From the NCBI RefSeq assembly GCF_900105185.1, contig NZ_FNTJ01000001.1, positions 3,120,501 through 3,184,500 of the forward strand: DNA of 64,000 bases, read 5' to 3'. Origin of the DNA: Pseudomonas saponiphila (lineage in GTDB: Bacteria > Pseudomonadota > Gammaproteobacteria > Pseudomonadales > Pseudomonadaceae). Within the stretch, counting starts at the first letter, position 1; the number at the start of each line of letters is the position of its first letter. Shown in pieces: positions 50,557 through 52,882 of this stretch. A program made the position numbers and the translations under genes. The notes beneath the pieces are model-generated. The model searched no databases. It was not told where the DNA came from and saw only the letters and a program-made list of their open reading frames with translations.

Positions 50557-51321
50557 TTACTGCGGCTGCAGGGTCAGCACCTCGAAGCCGTCGCGGGTCA
50601 CCGCCACCGTGTGTTCCCACTGGGCCGAGAGGCCGTTGTCGCGGGTCACCACGGTCCAACCGTCCTTGAGCCCGCGGACCCGGGCGCTGCCCTGGTTGAG
50701 CATCGGCTCGATGGTGAAGACCATGCCTTCTCGCAGTTCCAGGCCGGTGCCGGGGCGGCCGAAGTGCAGGATCTGTGGCTCTTCGTGCATCTGCCGGCCG
50801 ATACCGTGGCCGCAGTATTCGCGCACCACGCTATAGCCCTTGGCCTCGGCGTGGGCCTGGATGGCATGGCCGATATCGCCGAGGCGAGCGCCCGGGCGCA
50901 CCACCTTGATCGCCGCCCACATGGCTTCGAAGGTGGTGTCCACCAGGCGCCGGGCCTTGGGGCCGACCTCGCCGATCAGGTACATCTTGCTGGAGTCGGC
51001 GATGTAGCCGTGCTTTTCCAGGGTGATGTCGATGTTGACGATGTCGCCGTCCTTGAGCACGGCCTTGGCGTCGGGCATGCCGTGGCACACCACCTCGTTG
51101 ATCGAGGTGTTGATGCAAAAGGGGTAGTTGTACTGGCCCTTGCTCGCCGGGCGCGCCTTGAGCTGGTGGCGGATGAAGTGTTCCACCGCGCTGTCCAGCT
51201 CCAGGGTCGACAGGCCGGCGACCACAAAACTGTCGAGAAAGGTGAACACCTCGGCCAGCAGTCGCCCGGATTCGCGCATCAGCGCCAGTTGTTCCGGGGT
51301 CTTGATCAGTGCCTGGGTCAT
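50557..51321 (-). CDS. map: Type I methionine aminopeptidase
   Basis: Removes the initiator methionine from nascent proteins. The 254 residues include the metal ligands in NIDITLEKHGYIADSSKMY (two Asp), EYCGHGIGRQMHEEPQI (His), and EGMVFTIEPML (Glu), plus the N-terminal NEVVCHGMPD substrate His. Its ATG overlaps the stop of the ParD-like gene (ATGA). Pseudomonads usually also have a map beside rpsB; this one, linked to a ParD-like protein, is probably a second copy. Confidence 0.92.
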   Translation of the reverse strand: MTQALIKTPEQLALMRESGRLLAEVFTFLDSFVVAGLSTLELDSAVEHFIRHQLKARPASKGQYNYPFCINTSINEVVCHGMPDAKAVLKDGDIVNIDITLEKHGYIADSSKMYLIGEVGPKARRLVDTTFEAMWAAIKVVRPGARLGDIGHAIQAHAEAKGYSVVREYCGHGIGRQMHEEPQILHFGRPGTGLELREGMVFTIEPMLNQGSARVRGLKDGWTVVTRDNGLSAQWEHTVAVTRDGFEVLTLQPQ

Positions 51322-51518
51322 GCCTGGCCCCTGAGCAGATCGCTCTTGTTGAGCAACAACTTGTTGATCAGGTCGTTGTAGGCCAGGTGCGGGTTGAGCT
51401 CGGCCAACAGGCCGATCTTGATCCAGAACTCGGCCTGGGCGTTGATCGAGCGATCCATGGCGGTGCTGGCCACGCGGATCTGCTGGTGCAGTTCATCGGA
51501 GATCTTGACGATGCCCAT
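51318..51518 (-). CDS. ParD-like antitoxin-type protein
   Basis: A 66-residue protein, MGIVKISDELHQQIRVASTAM.. then ..INAQAEFWIKIGLLAELNPHL. This is the ParD-like ribbon-helix-helix family, normally a DNA-binding antitoxin. No ParE toxin is adjacent; the next gene, joined by ATGA, is map. AGGGAG precedes the start used. The frame is open to 51605, but that section runs into the heptamer repeat. A palindrome just upstream may be its own operator. Confidence 0.8.
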   Translation of the reverse strand: MGIVKISDELHQQIRVASTAMDRSINAQAEFWIKIGLLAELNPHLAYNDLINKLLLNKSDLLRGQA

Positions 51519-51540
51519 GCTTGGGGCTCCCTTGAGCAAA

Positions 51541-51566
51541 TATATGAATCGTATATGTTTCATATA
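51541..51566. promoter_or_regulatory. Palindrome upstream of parD-map, candidate operator
   Basis: TATATGAA and TTCATATA form perfect 8-bp inverted arms at 51541-51548 and 51559-51566, 23-48 bp before the ParD-like start. It is the AT-richest spot nearby. Ribbon-helix-helix proteins bind such sites to autoregulate. Confidence 0.5.
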
Positions 51567-51570
51567 ATCA

Positions 51571-51605
51571 GCGGCAAGCGGCAAGCGGCAAGCGGCAAGC
51601 GGCAA
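51571..51605. repeat. Heptamer tandem repeat (GCGGCAA)x5
   Basis: Five perfect copies of GCGGCAA run from 51571 to 51605, directly upstream of the palindrome. Copy number may vary by slippage and could alter promoter spacing for parD-map. Confidence 0.9.
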
Positions 51606-51657
51606 GCCGGGAGCTGGTGGGCGCTTTGGTGCTGGGCGTGAGTCGCGGAGAAAAGCA

Positions 51658-51663
51658 TTGACC
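51658..51663 (+). promoter_or_regulatory. Candidate -35 box of the ilvA leader
   Basis: TTGACC matches the -35 consensus in 5 of 6 positions. At 17 nt downstream the -10 (TTAGTT) is poor. If it is correct, transcription starts almost at the leader-peptide ATG, which would fit the lack of a ribosome site there. Confidence 0.3.
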
Positions 51664-51694
51664 GCAAGGCGCGGGCGCGGTTAGTTTCCGGTCC

Positions 51695-51763
51695 ATGACT
51701 TTTTCTGCCTATCGTTCCCAGCCAAGCATTATTACCGCCATTACCGATTGGCGGGCTTGCTGA
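51695..51763 (+). CDS. Leader peptide of the ilvA attenuator
   Basis: A 22-codon reading frame with the central run Ile-Ile-Thr-Ala-Ile-Thr (codons 12-17), ending at TGA 51761-51763. The protein itself would have no function. Stalling at Ile or Thr codons would control the hairpins that follow. The ribosome site is weak. It is supported by the matching stem arrangement 51735-51799 and by the gene downstream, a threonine dehydratase that starts isoleucine synthesis. Confidence 0.65.
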   Translation: MTFSAYRSQPSIITAITDWRAC

Positions 51764-51799
51764 CGACTGCACCCAACCCGCCCTGGAGGCGGGTTTTTT
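51735..51799 (+). promoter_or_regulatory. Transcription attenuator before ilvA
   Basis: Four segments can pair alternately. Segment 1 CCGCC (51735-51739) lies inside the Ile/Thr codons and pairs with segment 2 GGCGG (51750-51754). Segment 2 GGCGGG (51750-51755) can instead pair with segment 3 CCCGCC (51777-51782). Segment 3 also pairs with segment 4 in the terminator ACCCGCC-CTGGA-GGCGGGT plus TTTTT (51776-51799). A ribosome stalled on Ile codons would free segment 2 and prevent the terminator. Confidence 0.65.
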
Positions 51800-51841
51800 C
51801 TCTCTGTCTCCCGGGCTCCGAACACAGCCAGGAGCACCCTC

Positions 51842-52882
51842 ATGAATCACCCCAGCCGTCTTGCCAGCCCCCCTTTGCCCAGCGCCGACATGGCCTTGCT
51901 GGAACGCTACGTGAAGATGATCCTCGCCGCGCCGGTCTACGACCTGGCGATCTGCACGCCGTTGCAGGCGGCGCCCGCGCTGTCGCAACGGCTGGGCAAC
52001 CAGATCCTGCTCAAGCGCGAGGACCTGCAGCCGACCTTTTCCTTCAAGATCCGTGGCGCCTATAACCGCCTGGCGCAACTCACCCCGGAGCAGAAGCAGC
52101 GGGGGGTGATCACCGCGTCCGCCGGCAACCATGCCCAGGGCGTGGCCCTGGCCGCGCGGGAGCTGGGGATCAAGGCAACCATCGTGATGCCCGCCAGCAC
52201 CCCGGAACTCAAGGTGCTGGGGGTGCAGAGCCGCGACGCCGAGGCGATTCTGCATGGCGAGAGTTTTCCCTTTGCTCTGGCCCACGCCCTGAGCCTGGCC
52301 CAGCACACCGGCAGTACCTTCGTCTCGCCCTTTGACGACCCCCATGTGATTGCCGGGCAGGGCACCGTGGCCATGGAGATCCTGCGCCAGCACCCGGGGC
52401 CGCTGGACGCGATCTTCGTTCCGGTGGGCGGTGGCGGGTTGATCGCCGGGATCGCCGCCTACGTCAAATACCTGCAGCCGCAGATCCGCATCGTCGGCGT
52501 CGAGTCAGAACATTCCAACTGCCTGCAGCAGGCACTGGCGGCGGGGGAGCGGGTGGTCTTGCCCGCGGTGGGCACCTTTGCCGATGGCGTCGCGGTGGCG
52601 CAGATCGGCGAGCACGGGTTTCAGATCTGCCGGCATCATGTGGACCAGGTGATCAGCGTCAGCAACGACCAGTTGTGCGCCGCGATCAAGGACATCTACG
52701 ACGACACCCGCTCGATCACCGAGCCGTCCGGCGCCCTGGCGGTGGCCGGGATCAAGCAGTACGTGGCCCAGGGCGGCATCAGCGGCCAGACCCTGGTGGC
52801 CATCGACTCTGGCGCCAACATCAATTTCGACAGCCTGCGCCACGTCGCCGAACGCGCCGCCTTGAGCAGCATCCCGGCCTAG
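51842..52882 (+). CDS. ilvA: Threonine dehydratase, catalytic domain only (IlvA-like)
   Basis: PLP-dependent conversion of threonine to 2-oxobutyrate and ammonia, the first committed step to isoleucine. The 346 residues have the Schiff-base lysine Lys 69 in PTFSFKIRGAYN, ASAGNHAQGVALAA, the phosphate loop VGGGGLIAG and SGANINFDSLRHVAERA. The ~170-residue C-terminal ACT-like regulatory domain of classical IlvA is absent, so isoleucine feedback on the enzyme may be lost. The leader upstream suggests control at transcription instead. A serine/threonine catabolic role is the alternative. Confidence 0.85.
   Translation: MNHPSRLASPPLPSADMALLERYVKMILAAPVYDLAICTPLQAAPALSQRLGNQILLKREDLQPTFSFKIRGAYNRLAQLTPEQKQRGVITASAGNHAQGVALAARELGIKATIVMPASTPELKVLGVQSRDAEAILHGESFPFALAHALSLAQHTGSTFVSPFDDPHVIAGQGTVAMEILRQHPGPLDAIFVPVGGGGLIAGIAAYVKYLQPQIRIVGVESEHSNCLQQALAAGERVVLPAVGTFADGVAVAQIGEHGFQICRHHVDQVISVSNDQLCAAIKDIYDDTRSITEPSGALAVAGIKQYVAQGGISGQTLVAIDSGANINFDSLRHVAERAALSSIPA

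Follow-up and report, generated by a model that had tools for sequence, protein, structure and literature searches.

A putative isoleucine-responsive transcription attenuator upstream of the threonine dehydratase gene ilvA in Pseudomonas, coinciding with the catalogued RNA P9

The ilvA upstream region

The window, the entire 64,000-nucleotide stretch of Pseudomonas saponiphila DNA analyzed here, contains at 51695-51799 a short leader open reading frame (ORF), three overlapping hairpins and an intrinsic terminator, with ilvA, the gene for threonine dehydratase, beginning 42 bp further on. The leader of 22 codons extends from an ATG at 51695 to a TGA at 51761-51763, and its codons 12-17 are ATT ATT ACC GCC ATT ACC (Ile Ile Thr Ala Ile Thr). 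The features of the region, in window coordinates, are as follows:

51658-51663, plus strand: -35 hexamer TTGACC, from the sequence; TTGAC is conserved upstream of the leader ATG
51682-51687, plus strand: -10 hexamer TAGTTT (alternatively TTAGTT, shifted one base upstream), separated by 7 nt from the leader ATG, with three of six consensus bases
51695-51763, plus strand: leader peptide ORF MTFSAYRSQPSIITAITDWRAC, 22 codons with stop TGA, from the sequence; frame kept in relatives
51725-51797, plus strand: match to Rfam RF00624 (P9), 82.2 bits (gathering cut-off 43), E 4.4e-16, model positions 1-74 of 74
51728-51736, plus strand: control codons Ile12 Ile13 (Thr14); Ile in 112/112, Ile in 105 and Met in 7 of 112, and Thr in 109/112 loci
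51735-51740, plus strand: segment 1, CCGCCA, pairs with segment 2
51749-51755, plus strand: segment 2, TGGCGGG, pairs with segment 1 or segment 3
51775-51782, plus strand: segment 3, AACCCGCC, forms the antiterminator with segment 2 or the terminator with segment 4
51788-51795, plus strand: segment 4, GGCGGGTT, terminator stem
51794-51799, plus strand: U-run (six T) of the intrinsic terminator, from the sequence and a terminator scan
51830-51834, plus strand: AGGAG, likely ribosome-binding site of ilvA, from the sequence
51842-52882, plus strand: ilvA, threonine dehydratase, 346 aa; Pfam finds PALP only and no C-terminal regulatory domain

An initial annotation of this DNA had placed an Ile-Ile-Thr-Ala-Ile-Thr run of codons at segment 1 of a set of four segments that could pair 1-2, 2-3 or 3-4 ahead of a T-run. 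Both statements are borne out by the sequence, and the segments delimited here contain its shorter ones. Divergent from these elements is a gene for a ParD-like small protein (51318-51605, minus strand), directly before a type I methionyl aminopeptidase gene (50557-51321, minus strand), and head-to-tail GGCAAGC repeats at about 51570-51608 lie between the ParD-like gene and the promoter hexamers. A scan of the whole window against Rfam returned a single match, RF00624, which Rfam lists as type Gene with the description 'Pseudomonas sRNA P9'.

Conservation of the leader frame and its codons

We collected loci for comparison by similarity either to P9 or to the IlvA protein of the window, so that the sample is not an unbiased one. 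P9 gave 145 matches, 131 of them over the cut-off; 90 loci were fetched, including 77 over the cut-off. Sixty-eight of these 77 lead to ilvA, 60 being scored as direct and 8 via a gene for a SnoaL-like protein, and the other nine run into another gene or a contig end; inspection by eye also revealed an intervening SnoaL-like gene in L039, one of the 60, and a remnant of such a gene in L054. Among the 13 fetched matches below the cut-off, a leader ORF with an Ile core is present in three only (L075, L080 and L082), and weak matches to the model are largely chance terminators. An IlvA-like match is present in 151 loci, and the hairpin pattern in 119 of these. Dropping five exact duplicates and two loci outside the core pattern (L010 and L089, both of which have a leader ORF with IIIT), and keeping the copy in the window, left 112 loci.

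In each of these 112 loci the leader frame has an ATG 21-39 nt before the core, and the other two frames have one in none (0/112). The 80 loci found by the IlvA protein alone, without P9, include 50 that carry the hairpins. A frame-free test of these 50, made without the core pattern, found exactly one ATG 41-66 nt before segment 2 in every case (50/50), and the frame opened by this same ATG ends beside segment 2 and holds three to five Ile codons in all 50. The position of the leader stop is similarly constrained: relative to the start of segment 2 it lies 7 nt after in 99 of the 112 loci, 11 nt after in 7 (the clade of the window) and 4 nt before in 6. In all 112 loci, the stop thus lies no more than 4 nt before and no more than 11 nt after the point where segment 2 begins, a placement at which a ribosome finishing the leader would cover that segment. 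In the window and six near relatives a 1-nt gap follows the core, the stop is shifted and the last leader codons are altered. Among 52 non-independent pairs of near leaders, 48 differences are synonymous where 31.4 would be expected. When model R1 was run on 30 loci with a full-length IlvA and without the hairpin pattern, it gave no full match, the one partial match (L176, 13.8 bits) being to the terminator end. This comparative evidence indicates that the leader is probably translated. The leader frame, Ile codons and stems are kept in the relatives, which is the comparison that the initial annotation had proposed.

At the five core positions, the codons of the 112 loci specify Ile in 112; Ile in 105 and Met in 7; Thr in 109, with Ile, Ala and Ser once each; Ala in 111 and Ser in 1; and Ile in 112, these counts being partly conditioned by a core pattern that itself requires Ile-like codons. 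The 15-base core ATTATTACCGCCATT (Ile-Ile-Thr-Ala-Ile) is identical letter for letter in 99 of the 112 loci. The Ile codon is ATT at the first, second and third Ile place of the core in 110, 104 and 112 of the 112 loci, and the 99 Ile codons of six coding sequences of the window, ilvA included, comprise 12 ATT, 86 ATC and 1 ATA. No Val or Leu codon occurs in the core in any of the 112 loci.

Alternative pairing and folding

Antiterminator 2-3 and terminator 3-4 are mutually exclusive, and with the protector 1-2 they share segments. Folded in isolation, helices 1-2, 2-3 and 3-4 of the window have energies of -11.5, -13.2 and -13.7 kcal/mol, and the means over 45 rows are -11.2, -13.1 and -13.8 kcal/mol. 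These 45 rows form an alignment obtained by filtering 111 distinct loci and the window at about 93% identity. Standard pairs are kept in 88.6%, 89.2% and 97.2% of the cells of helices 1-2, 2-3 and 3-4, the last two figures being lowered by L047 and L075, in which segment 3 is misaligned by one base. Helix 1-2 has 7 doubly changed cells against 1.5 in shuffles, a value that 0/500 shuffles reached, the shuffles ignoring relatedness; counted as pairs with a double change there are 3 against 1.4, reached in 46/500. One of these helix 1-2 pairs changes from G-C to A-U in 4/45 rows, and the last pair is unpaired in 29/45. Helices 2-3 and 3-4 have 2 doubly changed cells each, and the seventh pair of 2-3 is broken in 30/45 rows, including the window. 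Since the covariation score of helix 2-3 is below that of two of its slid controls, its support comes from conservation more than from covariation. The covariation that the initial annotation had proposed to look for in the four segments is moderate for helix 1-2, where it appears as compensatory changes, and weak for helix 2-3.

Folding with an assumed ribosome footprint bears on how such a switch could operate. For transcripts ending at 51782, 51786 and 51790, placing the ribosome at Ile12 or Ile13 makes the antiterminator the optimal structure; with the ribosome at the stop codon or absent, the antiterminator forms at no transcript length tried. For transcripts ending at 51793 and 51799 the terminator 3-4 is best even with segment 1 masked (-13.7 versus -13.2 kcal/mol), and at 51793 it prevails wherever the ribosome is placed and also without one. 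Equilibrium folding of the whole transcript with the ribosome masked was tried as a model of the switch and set aside, as the antiterminator did not appear in it and only the shorter lengths gave it. Because the terminator wins in the full-length transcript even with segment 1 masked, the predicted switch must depend on folding during transcription, as classic attenuators likewise do. The scan for terminator-like structures, with one found against 0.8 expected, is weak evidence by itself.

Promoter and start of the leader

A TTGAC motif lies 25-45 nt upstream of the leader ATG in 111/112 loci, and equal windows 100 and 200 nt further up contain it in 18/112 and 0/112. A search 3-12 nt upstream of the ATG for the best TANNNT-type -10 hexamer places its end 5-8 nt from the ATG in 107/112 loci. 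The hexamer of the window is a poor one, with only half of the consensus bases, and a generic promoter scan of the region found none upstream of the leader. The leader ORF of the window lacks a Shine-Dalgarno sequence, and a motif of this kind precedes the leader ATG in 2/112 loci versus at least one candidate ilvA ATG in 94/96, the latter test having admitted several candidate ATGs per locus. From the conserved promoter spacing, we infer that transcription starts near 51693-51695, at or a few bases from the leader AUG, and that the leader is probably translated from a leaderless or near-leaderless message. The initial annotation had named a start downstream of 51763 as the observation that would speak against attenuation; a conserved promoter ending just before the leader ATG counters this, to the extent that the start can be predicted from it.

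A proposed mechanism of attenuation

Comparison of the sequences establishes the anatomy of the region, the alternative pairing and the conservation of the Ile codons, the stop and the reading frame. Together, these make it very likely that 51658-51799 acts as a ribosome-mediated transcription attenuator, with isoleucyl-tRNA as the signal and the threonine dehydratase gene behind it as the target. The central proposal of the initial annotation, that of a complete attenuator with an Ile-rich leader before ilvA, is in this respect supported by the relatives. Transcription would begin on the leader AUG or only a few bases away from it, and the leader would be read as a leaderless or nearly leaderless message. 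When isoleucyl-tRNA is short, the ribosome would stall at Ile12 or Ile13 with its front edge at about 51740-51743, covering segment 1; segments 2 and 3 could then pair before segment 4 is made, and RNA polymerase would read into ilvA. When it is plentiful, the ribosome would reach the stop codon and cover segment 2, 3-4 would form, and transcription would terminate near 51799. If the leader is not translated, 1-2 and 3-4 would form, and termination would result as well. Such a device suggests how many Pseudomonas species may control the first step of isoleucine synthesis.

The signal is likely to be isoleucine: the short leader carries codons for the end product, at core places where Ile is found in 112, 105 and 112 of the 112 loci. 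The initial annotation held that threonine is sensed besides isoleucine, so that both substrate and product would be monitored, and the Ile part of this stands, the Ile-rich leader being conserved. A stalled ribosome usually reaches about 15 nt forward, counted from the first base of the codon in its P site. By this geometry, a ribosome stalled at codons 12-14 would cover segment 1 and free segment 2, and one at codons 16-17 would cover part or all of segment 2; hence only codons 12-14 could serve as stall codons, and a stall at Thr17 would come too late in the leader to leave segment 2 free. Thr14 is kept in 109/112 loci though its first base (alignment column 46) is outside the counted stem, which speaks for threonine, as do the several leaders of another type that have IITT. 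Against this, bases 2-3 of Thr14 belong to segment 1, and Ile, Ser or Ala replaces it in three loci. Twelve more distant leaders, from other families of the order or class (L183-L191 and L197-L199), have Thr within the Ile run in four cases (L183, L186, L197 and L198) and lack it in eight, e.g. RIIIIP and RIIIIIP. Making threonine dehydratase upon a shortage of threonine would moreover be wasteful for the pathway. We therefore consider additional sensing of threonine unlikely beyond a possible minor role; threonine as the main signal, which we also considered, is made unlikely by the same replacements and absences.

The second alternative starts from the listing of P9 in Rfam and takes the element as an independent trans-acting sRNA whose position before ilvA is incidental. 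An attenuator leader that terminates does yield a short RNA, and PMC7298713 reports the Sinorhizobium meliloti trp leader RNA to be active in trans. Yet what is conserved in P9 is a reading frame that holds Ile codons and whose stop keeps its place relative to segment 2, 68 of the 77 fetched copies lead to ilvA, and the antiterminator pairing is kept. This makes an exclusively trans-acting P9 highly improbable, and P9 may additionally act in trans beside attenuation. The weakest alternative, a constitutive terminator with a chance ORF before an ilvA transcribed from elsewhere or by fixed read-through, can draw on the isolated energies, which slightly favour 3-4, and is hardly credible in view of the in-frame start (112/112 versus 0/112 out of frame), the lone ATG and fixed stop position in all of the 50 loci retrieved independently of P9, the Ile codons and the covarying 1-2 helix.

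The preferred reading, attenuation by isoleucyl-tRNA, gives a testable function to an RNA family so far listed only as an sRNA. P9 scores above the cut-off in 129/298 Pseudomonadaceae genomes and in 0/14 control genomes. The P9 model begins 30 nt inside the leader ORF, with the start codon and promoter outside the model, and Rfam describes it as an sRNA, whereas the attenuator reading comes from the initial annotation and the present analysis. An sRNA study is said to be the original source of P9, and Vitreschak et al. reportedly studied attenuators in proteobacteria in 2004. Novelty, which the initial annotation had left unverified, is weakened in that the RNA itself is already catalogued as P9; among the papers listed in searches of the open-licence literature, none describes P9 as an attenuator and none carries RF00624, an earlier description being possible. 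The main text, as far as accessible, of a 3'-end map of P. aeruginosa (PMC8297930), and likewise those of PMC2965389 and PMC2864571, do not mention ilvA.

Relation to the loss of the regulatory domain of IlvA

The IlvA of the window matches PALP only in Pfam, in agreement with the initial annotation, which had described an enzyme without its allosteric domain and had suggested that feedback moved from protein to RNA. Short and full-length IlvA were told apart by frame length, and Pfam finds Thr_dehydrat_C in both full-length proteins tested (L002 and L128). We built a quick tree of 136 IlvA catalytic domains, with SH-aLRT support only and midpoint rooting, from rows that stem from searches with this protein or P9 and are no census. 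It comprises 71 short IlvA with the attenuator, 35 full-length with it and 28 full-length without it, the remaining rows being one attenuator-bearing IlvA cut by a contig end and one short IlvA without the attenuator (L109); the L109 locus is itself cut by a contig end and still holds the 3' part of the motif (30.4 bits). The main clade of short IlvA has 62 rows (61 and L109) with a support of 99, and its sister is a group of 15 rows that are full-length with the attenuator. Ten short IlvA of another genus fall outside the main short clade. The genome of the window keeps a full-length IlvA with Thr_dehydrat_C and without the attenuator (L002), and L128 is an example of a full-length IlvA with Thr_dehydrat_C behind the attenuator.

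Because the attenuator also precedes full-length IlvA, it is most simply taken as older than the loss of the ACT-type domains. We examined the idea that it arose to replace the ACT domain and judge it unlikely on the same ground, and the suggestion of a move of feedback from protein to RNA is weakened by the 35 of 136 tree rows in which full-length IlvA follows the attenuator. In this sample, all ACT-less relatives of this IlvA with upstream DNA available have the attenuator, suggesting that loss of feedback at the protein level took place where feedback by RNA persisted. Two loci with an intact attenuator, L013 and L067, have a prematurely ending IlvA frame, of 221 and 117 codons counted from where the match starts and including the stop; these are possibly decaying genes or assembly errors.

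Related attenuators before other genes

Using a model derived from the 45 aligned rows, we searched 298 genomes of the family, 244 of the order and 321 of the class, the window genome and a few family members being counted in all three sets. Matches were found in 158 family and 34 order genomes (E <= 0.01 for both) and in 10 class genomes (E <= 0.001), the weak ones being largely due to chance. The strong matches outside the ilvA group combine an Ile-codon leader and similar hairpins with a different gene behind. One is a second copy in the genome of the window (G000:C1:2796118-2796225, minus strand; L037, G000:C1:2793000-2797500), with the leader MSLNLWQLRTAIITTCISQVG, which precedes the gene for a P-loop kinase of the AAA_33 family. 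In the genus, the motif accompanies this kinase in 6 of 25 fetched loci (of 32 matches).

A second recurrent neighbor is a gene for a SnoaL/DUF4440-like protein. It lies between the attenuator and ilvA in nine loci (L014, L038, L039, L041, L042, L046, L050, L052 and L072). In another genus of Pseudomonadaceae, it follows an IITT-type leader without ilvA (L047-L049, L051 and L053, with Pfam run on L047 only), and in L049 and L053 the start of a kinase-like frame (LHLLC) is present behind it. SnoaL-like genes also come after a P9-like attenuator, without ilvA, in L075, L079, L080 and L082 (Pfam on L080 only), and behind the attenuator in the class loci L197 and L198 (Pfam on L197 only). The window genome has no relative of the SnoaL-like protein at E <= 0.001.

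Further away, L183-L191 and L199, from other families of the order or class, have an Ile-run leader (e.g. MNTNLTQKTARIIIIP in L189) and P9-like hairpins, with a P-loop frame of the GKPGSGKST type behind. Pfam named no family for the two such frames searched (L184 and L187); for L184, NCBIfam returned 'DNA topology modulation protein' with a score under the cut-off. The L192 match (28.5 bits) precedes an ilvA, and a weak match in L207 (26.2 bits) lies before a GNAT protein. The only NCBIfam model matched by this GNAT protein (L207:1661-2239) is that of an isoleucine-tRNA ligase fusion, matched in its acetyltransferase part (1.1e-17) and far short of the model's cut-off. We tentatively raise the possibility, which we hold at less than even, that P9, rather than being an sRNA gene, is one branch of a widespread family of leaderless Ile attenuators in Gammaproteobacteria, which would, besides ilvA, also govern SnoaL/DUF4440-like, P-loop kinase and perhaps GNAT genes, not known to take part in isoleucine synthesis, in response to a shortage of isoleucyl-tRNA. 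That such a response is aimed at natural inhibitors of isoleucyl-tRNA synthetase or at isoleucine mimics is a guess. The attenuators before kinase and SnoaL-like genes point in any case to unexplored responses to isoleucyl-tRNA shortage.

Comparison with known attenuators

The attenuator of the Escherichia coli ilvGMEDA operon (ilvL) is multivalent, responding to Ile, Val and Leu, and controls a multi-gene operon. The element described here resembles ilvL in having a leader peptide with Ile codons, an alternative pairing of four segments and ilvA among the controlled genes. It differs in that its control run consists of Ile and one Thr, in its leader of about 21 codons that looks leaderless, and in that ilvA follows either directly or behind a SnoaL-like gene; a multivalent leader of the ilvL type would contain Ile, Val and Leu codons, and the last two are absent from all 112 cores. 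The Actinobacteria provide a likeness by layout, in another phylum and before another gene: in their ilvB leaders, terminator hairpins are overlapped by short ORFs that contain Ile, Val and Leu codon runs, and PMC1262725 calls the exact mode of regulation unclear. With regard to the start of the message, the closest parallel is the trpL attenuator of S. meliloti, which is ribosome-dependent and whose transcript, according to PMC7298713, starts at the AUG of the leader ORF. That system uses Trp codons and acts on trpE(G), and the AUG start was reported for it, whereas here it is deduced from promoter spacing. The proposed mechanism is thus of a known kind, the unexpected aspects being that the message probably starts leaderless and that relatives of the attenuator have targets outside biosynthesis.
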